The notes beneath the pieces are model-generated. The model was not told the DNA's origin, did not search any database, and worked only from the letters and a program-made list of their open reading frames with translations. 64,000 nt of DNA from Nitrospirales bacterium (GTDB taxonomy: Bacteria > Nitrospirota > Nitrospiria > Nitrospirales > UBA8639): NCBI GenBank assembly GCA_021604005.1, contig BQIV01000002.1, positions 1-64,000 on the forward strand, written 5' to 3'. A program made the translations under genes and the position numbers. Positions within the stretch are counted from its first letter, which is position 1, and each line of letters opens with the position of its first letter. Positions 2,709 through 9,118 of the stretch are shown piece by piece.

Positions 2709-2779
2709 CCGGCCAGAGAATAAACAATGAAGGGCAATGGACTCAACAAATCCGTCAAGCAGCCAATGCTGGCCAAACC

Positions 2780-3444
2780 CTAGAGCTCAGCCATATCGGC
2801 ATCGGCTTCGAGGGTGATCGTAACCAATGTGCGTTCAAGTTCAAGACGTTTGGCTTCAAGCACTTCGCGAGAGGACGTGGGGTCAACCCAAATGGGAGCC
2901 CCCCAAATAAACAACGCTTTCGAGGCAGGGTACGGGACCATAAATTGGTCCCAACTGGAGAAAAGTTTTTTTTTGAGTACGCCACGGTCACTGGAACAAT
3001 GGGTTGTCCCGTCATCTTCGCGAGATGAATCACACCGTTCTGCACGTTCCACTTGGGCCCCTTGGGACCATCGGGCGTGACGACAAGATCCGCACCACGT
3101 CGTCCATGACGAACCAATTGCCGAAGCGCTGTAGTCCCACCCCTCGTTGTTGATCCTCGCGCCGATCGAAAACCCAATCGGCTCACGATGCGGTGAATAA
3201 GTTCCCCATCCCGATGTTGACTAATTAAAATATAGGCCAGGTTTCCACGATACACCAACGGCATCATACATTGCCGACCATGCCAAAATGCAAAAATAAT
3301 GGACTTCCCTTCACCATACAGCGCATGCACAGAATCCTCACCCCGTTTCCTCACATCCAATGTACGGCCAAGCCATTGAATAAGTTTGGCTCCAACAACT
3401 GGAACAAGATGAAGCTTTATCCATTGAGAAGCGGACATCATCAT
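2780..3444 (-). CDS. Lysophospholipid acyltransferase family protein (DUF374), frameshifted
   Basis: DUF374 acyltransferases act on phospholipid or lipid A precursors at the membrane. The N-terminal part is in one frame: FAFWHGRQCMMPL, ISQHRDGELI, RGSTTRGG and VVTPDGPKGP are all family motifs. After residue about 158 (AYSKK) that frame runs into nonsense-like sequence ending at 2755. The adjacent frame continues the family's usual C-terminus (SSWDQFMVPYPASKALFIWG, then a helical tail with LEAKRLELERTL) to a stop at 2780. The switch falls in nine A's (T's on the plus strand, 2966-2974). One extra A would restore a protein of about 221 residues, the normal length. Its start overlaps the msbA stop. 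Read literally in one frame it would be 2755-3444, 229 residues. Confidence 0.85.
2966..2974 (-). other. Nine-A homopolymer at the frameshift point
   Basis: Nine consecutive T's on the plus strand (A's in the mRNA sense) lie exactly where the acyltransferase changes reading frame. Such tracts are known sites of replication slippage, RNA-polymerase slippage and sequencing indels. Confidence 0.85.
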
Positions 3445-5201
3445 GAGACCGTATTTGGAACAAACGGGGTCATTGGCGTATGTTCAAATTGCGTCTGATA
3501 GAGTCGAGTATAGATCCCACCGTGCTTGAGCAATTCCGTATGCGTACCTATTTCGACAAGATTTCCATGTTCAAGAACCACAATGCGGTCAGCATGCTGA
3601 ACGGTTGAAAGCCTGTGAGCAATCACCAACGTCGTTCGATGACTCATTAAATTCGCCAATGCGGCCTGGACAAGCCGTTCAGACTCAGAGTCCAACGCCG
3701 AGGTTGCCTCATCAAGAATTAAGATAGGTGGGTCGCGCAAAATCGCTCGTGCAATCGCTAACCGTTGCCGCTGTCCACCGGAAAGCTTCACCCCATCTTC
3801 CCCGACCAGCGTATCTAATTGCTTCGGGAGTTGCTCAATAAACTCCCAGGCAAACGCGGAGGTCGCGGCATCGATAATTTCGGCGTCGTTGGCATCTGGA
3901 CGTCCATACGCAATGTTATGTCGTATCGTATCATCGAAGAGCACCGTTTCTTGCGAGACAATGCCGATTTGACGTCGCAAGGACACTCGACTGGCTTCAC
4001 GCACATCCTGTCCATCGATCAAGAGCATGCCATCTGACGGGCGATAGAATCGTGGAACCAAGCTGACGAGCGTCGACTTTCCGCTCCCGCTGCTTCCGAC
4101 AAGGGCCACGACCTCTCCAACTTGAATCGTTAATGAAACATGCTCTAGAGCAGGCTGATCACTACCTTCATAGGAAAATGTCACATCTCGAAACTCTAAT
4201 GAGCGTGCAATGGGAGAGAGCGTTGCCTTCCCGTCGTCACGATCAAACTCGGTTTCCAGATCCAAAACATCAAAAACTCGCTTTGATGCAGCCAGGGCAC
4301 GTTGAATCGTTTGATTCGCCCCTGAAAGACGCCGAATTGGAGCATAGGCCATAAACATCGCGGCAAAAAATGAAGAAAACTCTCCAGGCGTCATCGCCCC
4401 GATACTTATCAGATGTCCCCCATACCAGGTAATGACCATTGTGCCACACACTCCAATGATTTCCATAAGAGGTGATGACAACGCGGAAACCTGTGCGGAC
4501 TTTTGGCTTGCCGATCGATAGTCTCGATTCGTCACGTCAAATCGCTGCGCTTCGGACTCCTCCCGCCCATAGGCTTTCACAAGACGAATTCCCGAAAAGG
4601 CTTCTTTGAGGACGGCCGCCATATCCCCCATACTTTCCTGGCCTCGTGTCGCGAGCTTCCTTAATCGTTTTCCAATACGAACAATCACGAATGCCGAAGC
4701 AGGAAGGAGAAACAACATAACGATCGCCAATTTCCAGCTCTGGTAAAATACCACGCCTAACAGGGCCACAAACGTCAACCCTTGCTGAAAGAGATCTTTC
4801 ATGATACTCGGAATAGCATTAGCCATTTCATTCACATCGCTGATCACGCGTGCCACTAATCGCCCCGAGGCATTTACATCATGAAACCTCACAGGTAAGC
4901 GCACGACGTGGACAAATAATTGATGCCGCACATCCGCCACAATCCAGTTCCCGACATAACTCATCAGGTAGGCCTGCCCATACGCAAAACTGGCTTTCAC
5001 AATCGCCACTCCCAGAATAATGGCTGGAAGCACACGAAACCAATACGCATCCTGCTCGATAAAGATACCATCCATGAGCGGCTGAACAAGCCACGCATAC
5101 ACCGCCTGTAAACACGCAACACCAATTGAGCACAATAAGGCCGCGACTAAACGAACACGATAGGCATGCACATATCGAAGCAGACGGAGGAAGGTGGTCA
5201 C
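3441..5201 (-). CDS. msbA: Lipid A export ATP-binding/permease protein
   Basis: Half-size ABC exporter that flips core lipid A across the inner membrane. It has six N-terminal membrane helices (about residues 1-310), then a nucleotide-binding domain with Walker A GSSGSGKST, signature LSGGQRQRLAIARAI, Walker B ILILDEATSALD and the H-loop in LVIAHRL. I chose GTG at 5201: it is preceded by a good GGAGG site and overlaps the lpxB stop as GTGA. A longer frame reaches an ATG at 5225, inside lpxB. The protein is 586 residues, normal for MsbA. Confidence 0.93.
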   Translation of the reverse strand: MTTFLRLLRYVHAYRVRLVAALLCSIGVACLQAVYAWLVQPLMDGIFIEQDAYWFRVLPAIILGVAIVKASFAYGQAYLMSYVGNWIVADVRHQLFVHVVRLPVRFHDVNASGRLVARVISDVNEMANAIPSIMKDLFQQGLTFVALLGVVFYQSWKLAIVMLFLLPASAFVIVRIGKRLRKLATRGQESMGDMAAVLKEAFSGIRLVKAYGREESEAQRFDVTNRDYRSASQKSAQVSALSSPLMEIIGVCGTMVITWYGGHLISIGAMTPGEFSSFFAAMFMAYAPIRRLSGANQTIQRALAASKRVFDVLDLETEFDRDDGKATLSPIARSLEFRDVTFSYEGSDQPALEHVSLTIQVGEVVALVGSSGSGKSTLVSLVPRFYRPSDGMLLIDGQDVREASRVSLRRQIGIVSQETVLFDDTIRHNIAYGRPDANDAEIIDAATSAFAWEFIEQLPKQLDTLVGEDGVKLSGGQRQRLAIARAILRDPPILILDEATSALDSESERLVQAALANLMSHRTTLVIAHRLSTVQHADRIVVLEHGNLVEIGTHTELLKHGGIYTRLYQTQFEHTPMTPFVPNTVS

Positions 5202-6340
5202 GCTTCCACCTCCGCCAGCACACATTCTGCTGCGCGGCGAGACGCTCCGGGATCACCCAAGGCCTCTCGAACGTCTTGAAAGGATCGCCGCATGTCTTCA
5301 AGCAACTGCGGATTATGCAAGAGACGAAGCGCTTCGGGAACCAAATGCTTGACCGTCATGTCATGCTGAATAAACTCAGGCACAATACGGCGTCCCGCCA
5401 CAATATTGACTAAGCCGATATAGGGTATTTTTATTAACAGGCGTGCCACCGCGTAGGTCAACCATGGGACGCGATAGAGGACGAGCATAGGCGTACCAAT
5501 AATAGCTGCCTGCAGTGTTGCCGTTCCAGAGGCCACAAATAACAGATCGGCGGCCGCCATGACTTCGTTGGGCTGATTGTCAACGACAGAAATCTGTAAA
5601 CTCTTAAAGCCCTTGATTTTATCATGAATGCCGGCATGCGACACGGACGATGACTTGGCAATGGTAATGTGAATGTCAGGGAATGCTTTCTTCACTTCCC
5701 ACGCAGCCTCGAGCATTGTCGGGAGACAACGCTCCACTTCGTGTTCCCGGCTTCCAGGGAGCAGGCCTAAGACGCGCGCGCCCTTTGGAACGTGTAATTG
5801 CTGTCGAACGATGGTTTGGTCATAGGACGCATCCACCTCATCCAATAGTGGATGTCCCACAAAGTTGCAGGGCACCCCAGCCTGACGGTACAACGACTCT
5901 TCAAATGGAAAAATGACTAACATACGACTCACGGCACGCTGTATCACATTCAGGCGACGTGCTCCCCATGCCCATATTTGCGGGGCAATGTAGTAGATGA
6001 CATGCTGATTGGCTTTCACCGCCGTTTTGGCTAAACGAAGATTCATACCTGGACTATCAATCAACACCACGGCATCATACGTTTCTTCCCTCAATATCTT
6101 TTTTAATCGCCGTAACAGCTGTACCCCTCGACGTAACTGCGTCAATCCAGGTACGCCAATGGCATCAACCGATTCAATGCCGGGAAGTAAACGCACGCCT
6201 TCAGCGGACATGCGTTGACCGCCAACACCATCAATGTGAATCTGGGAATGTAAACGATAGAGCTCTTTAGCGAGATTCGCGCCGTGCAAATCACCTGACG
6301 CCTCTCCAGTCACAATGAGAATTCGTGGTGAGGATTTCAC
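5198..6340 (-). CDS. lpxB: Lipid-A-disaccharide synthase
   Basis: GT19 enzyme that joins UDP-2,3-diacylglucosamine to lipid X to form the lipid A disaccharide on the cytoplasmic face of the membrane. Family marks in order: VTGEASGDLHGANL at the N-terminus, DGVGGQRM, VLIDSPGMNLRLAK, YYIAPQIWAWG and LLPGSREHEV, then ASGTATLQAAIIGTPMLVLY in the donor-binding half. The 380 residues match the usual length. It lies 19 bases after the Gfo/Idh gene and is translationally coupled to msbA. Confidence 0.96.
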   Translation of the reverse strand: MKSSPRILIVTGEASGDLHGANLAKELYRLHSQIHIDGVGGQRMSAEGVRLLPGIESVDAIGVPGLTQLRRGVQLLRRLKKILREETYDAVVLIDSPGMNLRLAKTAVKANQHVIYYIAPQIWAWGARRLNVIQRAVSRMLVIFPFEESLYRQAGVPCNFVGHPLLDEVDASYDQTIVRQQLHVPKGARVLGLLPGSREHEVERCLPTMLEAAWEVKKAFPDIHITIAKSSSVSHAGIHDKIKGFKSLQISVVDNQPNEVMAAADLLFVASGTATLQAAIIGTPMLVLYRVPWLTYAVARLLIKIPYIGLVNIVAGRRIVPEFIQHDMTVKHLVPEALRLLHNPQLLEDMRRSFQDVREALGDPGASRRAAECVLAEVEA

Positions 6341-6359: not shown

Positions 6360-7325
6360 TCAGTCTCTCGACTCTTTCGATGAGGTCGCGGCTGATGCCA
6401 CATGGATGTTCTTGAGTATTTGATGTGCGAGATCTAACGACCCGACTCCATCCTCTCCAGACACCAACGGAGTCGACTGCGAGTTGATCGCGGCGAGAAA
6501 GGCCTGCAACTCACGTTGAAGCGGCTCACCGTCTCCTCCGGAGAGTTGTTCCGTTTTCACACTGACGCCTCCATCATTCCGTCCATTTCGGCGATGGATG
6601 ACCGCTTGCCGATCCTGATAATCGATAGAAAAGTATGCCTGAGGCTGGAACACACGACACTTCCGAAGTCTCCCGGTTGAAATGCGGCTCGCCGTAAACG
6701 TCGCCACACTACCATTCGCAAACCCAATACGCGCGTTGGCAATGTCTATTTGGTCGGTGAGCACGGCTAATCCGGAGGCTTCGATCGAGACGATTGAACC
6801 GAGTTGCAACGACAAGACAATATCAAGATCATGAATCATCAAATCAAGGACCACGTCGACATCCGTTCCTCGCGGCTGAAACGGACTGAGCCGGTGACAT
6901 TCGACAAACCCGGGATTCTGAATCAACGGGCGGACGATGTCGACAATGGGATTGAAACGTTCGACATGGCCAACTTGGAGAATACACTTGTATTGTTTGG
7001 CCAACTTGACTAAGGTCCGGCCATCTTCAATCCCGGACGTAATGGGTTTTTCCACAAGTACATGCACACCAGCTTCGAGACACGCGCGGACAACCGGATA
7101 ATGTTGAGAGGTCGGAACAGCAACGCTCACCGCATCGACATCTGACAAAAGACGAGCAAACTGCGCATGGTGTTGAACATGAAATTGGGAAGCGATAGCG
7201 TGGCCTCGTGACACGTCGATATCCGAGATCGCGACAAGCCGGGCTTCAGGAAGGGCGGAATAAATTCTCGCATGATGTTGCCCTAAATGCCCAACCCCAA
7301 TCACGCCAACCTTCAGTTGATCCAT
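6360..7325 (-). CDS. Gfo/Idh/MocA family oxidoreductase in the lipid A operon
   Basis: NAD(P)-dependent sugar oxidoreductase of 321 residues. The Rossmann motif GVIGVGHLGQHHAR is at residues 7-20 and the conserved LVEKPIT at about 90-96, followed by a C-terminal Gfo/Idh beta-sheet domain. The substrate cannot be read from sequence. Its place between lpxB and lpxI suggests a role in a lipid A precursor. One known precedent is GnnA, which oxidises UDP-GlcNAc before GnnB transamination, but no GnnB-like aminotransferase is adjacent (the only DegT protein here is 48 kb away). The general family call is firm; GnnA is only a possibility. Confidence 0.88.
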   Translation of the reverse strand: MDQLKVGVIGVGHLGQHHARIYSALPEARLVAISDIDVSRGHAIASQFHVQHHAQFARLLSDVDAVSVAVPTSQHYPVVRACLEAGVHVLVEKPITSGIEDGRTLVKLAKQYKCILQVGHVERFNPIVDIVRPLIQNPGFVECHRLSPFQPRGTDVDVVLDLMIHDLDIVLSLQLGSIVSIEASGLAVLTDQIDIANARIGFANGSVATFTASRISTGRLRKCRVFQPQAYFSIDYQDRQAVIHRRNGRNDGGVSVKTEQLSGGDGEPLQRELQAFLAAINSQSTPLVSGEDGVGSLDLAHQILKNIHVASAATSSKESRD

Positions 7326-7418: not shown

Positions 7419-8285
7419 TTACATCGAGACAGGTCGTCCATGTGCTGCCGATATGCCCACAATAGCAATGCGATGGGCATTGGCTTGCTCAAGCACACGA
7501 TCTCGATCAAGTACAATTGTACGCCCAGCTTCCAGAGCCAACACAGACGCCTTCGCTTCAATCATTCGTTCAACGGAAATGGGACCAATGGCGGGAAGAT
7601 CGAAGCGTAAATCTTGCGTTGGTTTACAACGCTTGACCACCACGGCATTTTTTTGGGCCAACCGCCCACCGCGCCGAATGGTTTCATCCGTTCCTTCCGC
7701 AGCTTCAACCGCCACGACGGCTCGATTTTTCACCACTACGCACTGGCCAATATCTAAGCGACCAATGTCATGGGCCATGTCCCACCCAAACTGAATATCC
7801 TCCCATTCCTTTTTGGATGGCTTTCGGTTCGTCAACACACCTTCTTCGGCAAGAATGTCTTCTAGACCAAAAGTCGAATCAATAATATGAATCCCTTCAC
7901 GTTCCAGCTCTCCGGCCACAGCACGCAGAATACCATCATCTTTCCAATCCTTGAGCCTACTCAACACCATCAAGGCACGAAGGTCGGGACTGACGGTGGA
8001 AAACACATGGGTTTTTTTGAATCCCCCAAGCATCACCGCTTGCTGAATATCATGTTTTCTGAAGGCTTGAACGACCTTATTGAATTGGCCTATTTTTACC
8101 CACTGAATCCATTCAACGGCCTGTTCGAGTTCAGCAGAGGTCTCGCCGATATGGGCAACGGCTGACACACGATAACCCAATTTTCGAACCCGCTCCGAAA
8201 AGATAATCGGGAACCGTCCATTGCCAGCAATTAAGCCGATTCGGTCATTCTTTTGCACTGTTGACGTTCTTTCAGCGTAACTCAC
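7419..8285 (-). CDS. lpxI: UDP-2,3-diacylglucosamine pyrophosphatase, LpxI type (DUF1009)
   Basis: Hydrolyses UDP-2,3-diacylglucosamine to lipid X, replacing LpxH in bacteria that lack it. The 288-residue sequence has IGLIAGNGRFPI near residue 17, MLGGFKKTHVF, a central FGLEDILAEEGVLT and the C-terminal stretch KRCKPTQDLRFDLPAIGPI. It ends with the typical VLDRDRVLEQANAHRIAIVG. The position between lpxA and lpxB is typical. A 93-base gap separates it from the oxidoreductase downstream. Confidence 0.92.
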   Translation of the reverse strand: MSYAERTSTVQKNDRIGLIAGNGRFPIIFSERVRKLGYRVSAVAHIGETSAELEQAVEWIQWVKIGQFNKVVQAFRKHDIQQAVMLGGFKKTHVFSTVSPDLRALMVLSRLKDWKDDGILRAVAGELEREGIHIIDSTFGLEDILAEEGVLTNRKPSKKEWEDIQFGWDMAHDIGRLDIGQCVVVKNRAVVAVEAAEGTDETIRRGGRLAQKNAVVVKRCKPTQDLRFDLPAIGPISVERMIEAKASVLALEAGRTIVLDRDRVLEQANAHRIAIVGISAAHGRPVSM

Positions 8286-8308: not shown

Positions 8309-9118
8309 CTATACTTCTTCTTCATCTAATTCTCGCGACGCGCCTCGACATGTCCCCCGGCGAGAACTCTCAATAAATGTCACAAGTTTCAAGACATCGG
8401 CGCTATGCTCATATTGGGTACGGACGAGCTTGGTCGCCTCACTGATTGAATGTTTCTGGCGAAACAGCACGTCAAAGGCGCCTTTGAGATTGGCGATACG
8501 TTCACTGCTAAACTTATAGCGCCTGAGCGCAATCGAGTTGAGTCCAAATAACCGTGCGCGATAGCCGCCCGCTGCGCGTAAAAACGGAGGGACATCGCGC
8601 CCTAAAGCCGAGCAACCTCCGACCATCGCATATTCGCCGATCCGCACATACTGATGCACCCCCACCAACCCGCCAATGACAGAATAATTCCCTATGTATA
8701 TATGCCCTGCTAGCGTTGCGGCATTGGCCATAACGATGTAATCACCTAATTCACAATCATGCGCGACATGTACATAGGCCATGAGAAAATTGTGATGGCC
8801 AATACGCGTTACACCTCCGCCAAAACTCGTGGCGCGATTGACGGTGACATATTCCCGTAAAATATTGTCATCTCCAATAACCACTTTGGTCGGTTCATCT
8901 TTATATTGGAGGTGCTGCGGAGGAGATCCGATCGATGAATACGGAAACAGTTTGCATCGCTGGCCAATTTCCGTATGGCCTTCGACATTGACATGAGCAA
9001 CCAGCTCGGTCCCCTGTCGTATTCGGACATGCTCGCCCACAATACAATACGGACCAATACTCACATTGTCGTCAATTTCGGCCTTTGGATGTACAATCGC
9101 TGTTGGATGAATGTTCAT
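8309..9118 (-). CDS. lpxA: UDP-N-acetylglucosamine acyltransferase
   Basis: First enzyme of lipid A synthesis, O-acylating UDP-GlcNAc (or its 3-amino form) with hydroxyacyl-ACP. The sequence is a left-handed beta-helix of hexapeptide repeats (IHPTAIVHPKAEIDDNVSIG onward). The catalytic histidine lies in HVAHDC (about residue 121), followed by GGLVGVHQYVRIG and DVPPFLRAAGG, then a helical C-terminus. The 269-residue length is normal. fabZ lies 22 bases upstream. Confidence 0.96.
   Translation of the reverse strand: MNIHPTAIVHPKAEIDDNVSIGPYCIVGEHVRIRQGTELVAHVNVEGHTEIGQRCKLFPYSSIGSPPQHLQYKDEPTKVVIGDDNILREYVTVNRATSFGGGVTRIGHHNFLMAYVHVAHDCELGDYIVMANAATLAGHIYIGNYSVIGGLVGVHQYVRIGEYAMVGGCSALGRDVPPFLRAAGGYRARLFGLNSIALRRYKFSSERIANLKGAFDVLFRQKHSISEATKLVRTQYEHSADVLKLVTFIESSRRGTCRGASRELDEEEV

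Follow-up and report, generated by a model that had tools for sequence, protein, structure and literature searches.

The window, that is, the whole 64-kb stretch of DNA that was analysed, carries on its minus strand a lipid A operon arranged around a DUF374 gene. On the upstream side, lpxA (8309–9118) and lpxI (7419–8285) are open frames, lpxB (5198–6340) matches PF02684 (E 4.4e-95), and msbA (3441–5225), which scores above the cut-off of TIGR02203, directly adjoins the DUF374 gene. On the downstream side, waaA, encoding the Kdo transferase (1329–2708, with the start codon as given by the ORF tool; PF04413, E 3.2e-63), adjoins the gene, and lpxK is found at 204–1295 (PF02606 and TIGR00682). 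The original prediction described everything around the DUF374 gene as intact, and the flanking lpxK, waaA, msbA, lpxB, lpxI, and lpxA are indeed all open. A minus-strand oxidoreductase of the GFO/IDH/MocA family (6360–7325) lies between lpxI and lpxB. Its role in a lipid A operon is not obvious; it may possibly serve an amino-sugar variant of lipid A.

The DUF374 gene encodes an acyltransferase of the LpxJ type and sits between msbA and waaA; it begins at 3444 with an ATG that overlaps the stop codon of msbA. The LpxJ family, which consists of lipid A late acyltransferases, was formerly called DUF374 (PMC6148475). The minus-strand sequence from 3800 to 2500 was read, and the reading frame of the gene was found to change at nine A's that occupy positions 2974–2966 on the minus strand (T's on the plus strand), as had been predicted. 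The frame-0 ORF (2755–3444) encodes 229 amino acids, made up of the conserved part and an unconserved frame-0 tail of 72 amino acids. The conserved N-terminal part (2974–3444) contains the DUF374 motifs, and Pfam family PF04028 matches residues 66–130 of the frame-0 ORF (E 2.8e-26; 91.3 bits against a cut-off of 26.8), which bears out the earlier assignment of the N-terminal motifs to the first frame. The C-terminus of the family (SSWDQFMVPYP onward) is encoded in the −1 frame, in a conserved part (2780–2965) that runs from LFSSWDQFMVPYP to a TAG stop at 2782–2780, also in agreement with that prediction. The run between the two parts (2966–2974) is the proposed slippage site, and it is read in the window as TCA AAA AAA AAC. 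It is the only A/T run of at least nine in the window, which has a GC content of 0.465 and contains six runs of eight. A scan of the window genome (4.7 Mb) for nine A's gave 36 overlapping matches, which amount to about 30 A/T runs of at least nine besides the one in the DUF374 gene. A search of PHROGs returned no match.

The tract was compared across relatives, a check that the original prediction had proposed. All five genomes of the genus, the window genome included, carry the gene, and the frame break is present in all five. A DUF374 match was obtained in 44 of the 48 genomes of the family and in 211 of the 235 genomes of the order, which contains Nitrospira, leaving 24 without a match. 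For five genomes of the order that lack a match, four of them small (1.7–1.8 Mb), loss of the gene or incomplete assembly may be responsible. All 211 gene-bearing loci of the order, each from a species-level genome, were read, and 202 are broken at the same place and in the same direction, with a run of 9 or 10 A's. In every one of these 202 genes, whether the run is 9 or 10, the Trp codon lies 20 nt beyond the end of the Ser-type codon, and 17 of the 202 genomes are listed as single contigs. A pattern scan for the exact form of the site found it in 127 of 395 genomes drawn from the phylum, all 127 belonging to the order, and the reversed control pattern had no match in the same 395 genomes. 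These findings mark the frame break as an apparently ancient, inherited trait rather than an error of sequencing.

The exceptions within the order are few. Six genomes (G020, G151, and G231–G234, the copy in G233 being a distant one) have the gene in frame without a run of nine. G039 has the gene in frame with 10 A's and is the only such case in 211. In G012 the run is 10 A's long and the C-terminus falls in the +1 frame; close to the run, on its downstream side, this genome lacks one T that is present in the very similar G017. The G012 state may be either an assembly slip or a gene that would need the loss of one A at slippage; its locus is identical near the site to another locus, L294. In G118, two Ns upstream make the frame unscorable, and this genome was entered as in frame in the counts of 211 and 298. 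One locus (L226, from G190) with no parsable N-terminal part and a disturbed upstream frame was dropped.

Protein or family searches gave 298 genes, from species that are not independent of one another, and 227 of these are broken, with a run of 9 in 206 and of 10 in 21. A further 67 genes are in frame with a run of eight or fewer, and a broken gene with a run shorter than nine was found in none of the 298. A long run without the usual break occurs in four of the 298, namely G039 and L374 in frame, the unscorable G118, and G012 in the +1 frame. L374 is in frame with 9 A's, and L368 and L408 are in frame with 8. No run of nine is present in G020, G151, or family f4, all of which are in frame. 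A FastTree tree was built from the part upstream of the run and rooted on distant in-frame relatives; several of its branches are weakly supported, three short loci (L106, L224, and L225) were left out, and L355 was not parsed. Frame and run states change 10–11 times on this tree, compared with a mean of 63 for shuffled labels. Of six supported independent pairs, five agree with the association of break and run, none oppose it, and one shows no difference (sign test, p 0.0625). The tree reads as inheritance of the broken state through a large Nitrospirota clade, with further apparent origins in a second Nitrospirota group and in the phylum to which a Syntrophorhabdus genome belongs. It also reads as including a few returns to frame, with the caution that parsimony counts alone do not prove direction.

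The site extends beyond the order. In other orders of the class, 13 of the 20 genomes searched had a match; nine of the 13 loci combine the break with a run of 9 or 10, and the other four have neither. In other Nitrospirota classes, 36 genomes were searched and eight matched, and the parsed loci comprise four broken with a run and four in frame without one. In the Syntrophorhabdus phylum, the DUF374 family is present in 187 of 247 genomes. Of the 69 loci read there, 15 have 9 or 10 A's and a broken frame, and the frame is intact in 53 with eight or fewer and in one with nine; the 15 of 69 is not a frequency, as the loci are the 30 best by E-value plus 39 picked by hand, partly by open-frame length and including G490, known beforehand to be positive. 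In the phylum of an Acidobacteria-titled genome, the site pattern was found in nine of 297 genomes with the C-terminus in the −1 frame in all nine, a result to be read with the spacing of the pattern, which favours a −1 layout, and with the genome at the centre of the search being one of the nine. Among named genomes, at least 119 stretches carry the site, and the −1 frame was found in 107 of the 111 with a recognisable upstream motif; this pattern likewise favours the −1 layout, so the proportion of broken genes in this set carries no weight in the argument. Two loci with 10 A's in frame (L292 and L340) may represent precursor or reverted states, as may G039, L374, and one partial named contig (L312) with a run of 11 A's. 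Four records titled Acidimicrobiia, Nitrospinota, or Nitrosospira carry a Nitrospira-like lpxJ, and these are probably mis-binned or mis-named assemblies and are not taken as evidence of spread.

The gene neighbourhood was checked in 147 loci, namely the 119 named stretches in which the site had been detected together with 28 to 30 loci from the family. Among the 131 with room on both sides, 129 are flanked on the same strand by matches to MsbA (upstream) and WaaA (downstream). Deltaproteobacteria-titled records are among the loci with both neighbours, and an Acidobacteria-titled locus has neither.

Selection on the two parts of the gene was estimated by comparing moderately diverged broken genes in 600 pairs. 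Before the run, pN/pS is 0.146. After the run, pN/pS is 0.285 in the shifted frame and 1.21 in frame 0, where an average of two stop-bearing codons per pair was found. Purifying selection after the run acts only in the shifted frame, indicating that the full-length product is what selection sees. The frame-0 tails of the 211 broken genes tabulated (202 of the order and nine of the rest of the class) are 49 codons long in 86 genes, 52 in 42, and 11 in 27, with more than 20 other lengths in the rest. These lengths are common within clades and are not shared across clades.

The read-through protein was modelled with AlphaFold2, giving a mean pLDDT of 90.5 from an alignment of 24 sequences, three of which cover the part after the run. 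The model has a lysophospholipid-acyltransferase-like fold. Its best PDB fold matches are PatA, PlsC, and LpxM (E 7e-7 to 1e-5), with a TM of only 0.51–0.57, and a sequence search of solved structures gave weak matches, the best with E 0.23. In the model, the junction lies in a turn after strand 149–156, and beyond it are placed strands 159–163, 166–170, and 175–180 and a C-terminal helix (192–219). The truncated frame-0 protein is probably inactive because it would lack the three strands and the helix that the model places beyond the junction. The family and the operon suggest that the full product acylates lipid A.

The codons of the tract were examined in the same 211 broken genes, which have a median GC of 0.61. 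Outside the tract, these genes use AAA for 36% of Lys and TCA for 8% of Ser, and AAG is preferred for Lys. Within the tract, all 211 have AAA AAA as the middle pair of codons. The first codon is TCA in 204, TCT in five, and TTA and GCA in the remaining two; the fourth is AAC in 152 and AAG in 40. All five genes with TCT have AAA as the fourth codon, so a run of at least nine is kept even though its register moves by one base. A moved register is common in the Syntrophorhabdus phylum, where AGT, GGT, CGT, or TCT is followed by nine A's. It can be argued from these codons that one ribosomal heptamer of 7 nt would not hold all nine positions, and that a requirement on run length would.

The region around the tract was also searched for elements that stimulate ribosomal frameshifting. 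No Shine–Dalgarno-like element was found among seven motifs in the roughly 20 nt upstream in any of the 211 genes. The 55 nt downstream have a mean folding z of −0.23 (n=69), compared with −0.09 in a control stretch (n=70), in a model that leaves pseudoknots aside. A z below −2 was obtained for four of the 69 and for one of the 70, and a consensus fold over the 69 diverse downstream sequences was empty. Slippery heptamers, A AAA AAA and/or A AAA AAC/G/A, are present in all 211. Thus, of the marks of −1 ribosomal frameshifting, the heptamer was found, and a downstream stimulatory fold, as far as that model covers it, and an SD-like element were not. The marks of a transcriptional slippage site that were found are an A/T run of about nine or more at the junction in 227 of 227 broken genes, a conserved frame relation and run, and selection on both parts.

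Together with these data, it can be proposed that the gene encodes a functional late acyltransferase of the LpxJ family whose full-length form depends on RNA polymerase slippage at 9, sometimes 10, A's. A probability of roughly 0.8 is given to this reading. RNA polymerase would slip on the A run and add one A to a fraction of the mRNAs, and ordinary translation of the slipped mRNAs would produce the full enzyme. The protein made from unslipped mRNAs would leave the family sequence at the run, and the last three strands would be missing from it along with the C-terminal helix. In a large proportion of bacterial genomes, selection against A/T runs becomes evident at a length of nine nucleotides (PMC1088944), and according to a review, slippage in vivo is efficient on nine A's or T's (PMC5009743). 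Transcription is favoured because the run length is held, because ribosomal stimulators were not found, and because nine nucleotides is the published threshold. Of the explanations first offered for the break, transcriptional slippage yielding a short and a full product is thus the one that gained comparative support, with the two products themselves being what the mechanism would predict.

The main rival is programmed −1 ribosomal frameshifting at the tandem A AAA AAA / A AAA AAC(G), with the mRNA unaltered. It would yield an identical protein, and its slippery heptamers occur in all the tabulated broken genes. In addition, with stimulators present, A_AA.A_AA.G ranks among the motifs that shift most efficiently in E. 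coli, and a proven A_AAA_AAC case is described in IS elements without an established stimulator (PMC4066793). However, none of the SD-like motifs tried occurs upstream in any of the 211, and the downstream stretch shows neither a consensus nor an unusual mean structure. A single heptamer also leaves the conservation of nine A's unexplained, as the change to AAA in the fourth codon after TCT illustrates, and AAC outnumbers AAG as the fourth codon although the AAG motif is the efficient one in E. coli. Ribosomal frameshifting is therefore considered unlikely, but it is the alternative that deserves the most attention as to mechanism. Phase variation, in which DNA slippage in the A run would switch lipid A acylation on and off between generations, was another of the initial suggestions. 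A runs mutate readily, and a lipid A gene would be a plausible object of such switching. A random on/off switch, however, would leave a mixture of states across genomes, with on and off run lengths both common among relatives. The in-frame state with a run was found in one of 211 genomes of the order (G039, with 10 A's), and the broken runs are 9 or 10 in all 227 cases. Strong selection on the shifted frame also speaks against such a switch, which is very improbable. A sequencing or assembly error, also among the explanations proposed at the outset, has in its favour that homopolymers are error-prone and that G012 and G118 look like single-assembly anomalies. It was rejected because 202 of the 211 species-level genomes are broken in the same way; the single-contig genomes and the invariant spacing to the Trp codon speak against it as well, and the chance that it accounts for the break is minute.

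Why the site is kept is a separate matter from how it works. One reading, held tentatively and at just short of even odds, is that the nine-A run acts as an ancient dose valve for lipid A acylation, in which selection keeps LpxJ dependent on slippage and a return to a single frame is disfavoured. One operon (msbA-lpxJ-waaA) would then supply full-length LpxJ in a constant, low proportion to MsbA and WaaA or, alternatively, in a proportion that varies with conditions acting on the polymerase. Such a role would apply across the order and, through apparently separate origins, in other phyla. The other reading is neutral lock-in, in which a deletion in an A-rich Lys stretch was tolerated through rescue by slippage and has merely been inherited since, neither the short product nor a low dose bringing any advantage. 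This concerns the persistence of the site, and its odds do not compete with those of polymerase slippage. In-frame relatives with A-rich Lys codons (8 A's in L368 and L408, 9 in L374) could represent the precursor, frame 0 past the run is not under purifying selection, and homopolymer frameshifts are possibly corrected by slippage in Blochmannia and Buchnera (PMC3017870). However, a one-base return to an in-frame run of 10 A's would be expected to be frequent and was seen once in 211, and the run is gone from other in-frame members (G020, G151, and f4). Neutral lock-in is a quite possible explanation, at odds somewhat below even.

If polymerase slippage is confirmed as the mechanism, lpxJ would be among the slippage-dependent bacterial genes with the deepest conservation, situated in a core envelope pathway of nitrifiers. 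Predictions of lipid A structure or of lpxJ expression in these bacteria would then have to allow for slippage. Annotation tools may call the gene a pseudogene or split it into two fragments. The 202 broken genomes of the order, the handful in frame, and the apparently separate origins elsewhere form a natural comparative experiment, which bears on whether slippage sites persist by selection or by lock-in.

Characterized LpxJ/DUF374 enzymes share with this gene the Pfam family, the lipid A operon context, and a related acyltransferase fold. No frameshift is described for them in the available part of that report (PMC6148475), whereas the relatives of the window gene encode the protein in two frames. 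Among the openly available papers listed in a literature search, none was found to report slippage or frameshifting in lpxJ/DUF374 or in these bacteria. The GeneTack survey likewise sought conserved frame transitions in prokaryotes, in 1106 genomes, and it included one Nitrospirae genome; DUF374 is not named in its main text, and a cluster labelled 'Tetraacyldisaccharide kinase/acyltransferase' is placed under translational coupling (PMC3711429). Term searches of the accessible text of that survey (PMC3711429) and of the slippage review (PMC5009743) returned no mention of an lpxJ slippage site.

Ribosomal and transcriptional systems of comparable design are known. E. coli dnaX uses −1 ribosomal frameshifting at an A-rich slippery heptamer. 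The lpxJ site differs from E. coli dnaX and from IS elements in that stimulators were not found and nine A's, not seven, are conserved. IS-element frameshifting resembles it in the A-rich slippery heptamer and the −1 direction (PMC4066793). In Thermus thermophilus dnaX, nine sense-strand A's likewise lie in a cellular housekeeping gene that gives a long and a short product; there the unslipped mRNA encodes the full-length protein (PMC1088944, PMC5009743), whereas in lpxJ the slipped mRNA would do so. The Thermus gene serves DNA replication, and lpxJ is an envelope gene. In Citrobacter rodentium tssM1, the DNA frame is likewise broken after a poly-A run (11 A's), slippage restores the full-length protein at about 20%, and no SD or structure is reported nearby (PMC4256274). 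The tssM paper describes, in the text available, one further tssM with a run in another species (PMC4256274), whereas the lpxJ site is found in nearly the whole order and in other phyla. Frameshifted genes that are kept and may be corrected by slippage, with frames common between species, are also described in Buchnera and Blochmannia, which are AT-biased insect endosymbionts with 114–153 long coding poly-A tracts (PMC3017870). In contrast, lpxJ has a single conserved site in genes with a median GC of 0.61. Poly-A slippage in bacterial genes is thus already known, and what is unusual in the proposed lpxJ case is the depth of conservation of the site and its position in a core envelope gene.
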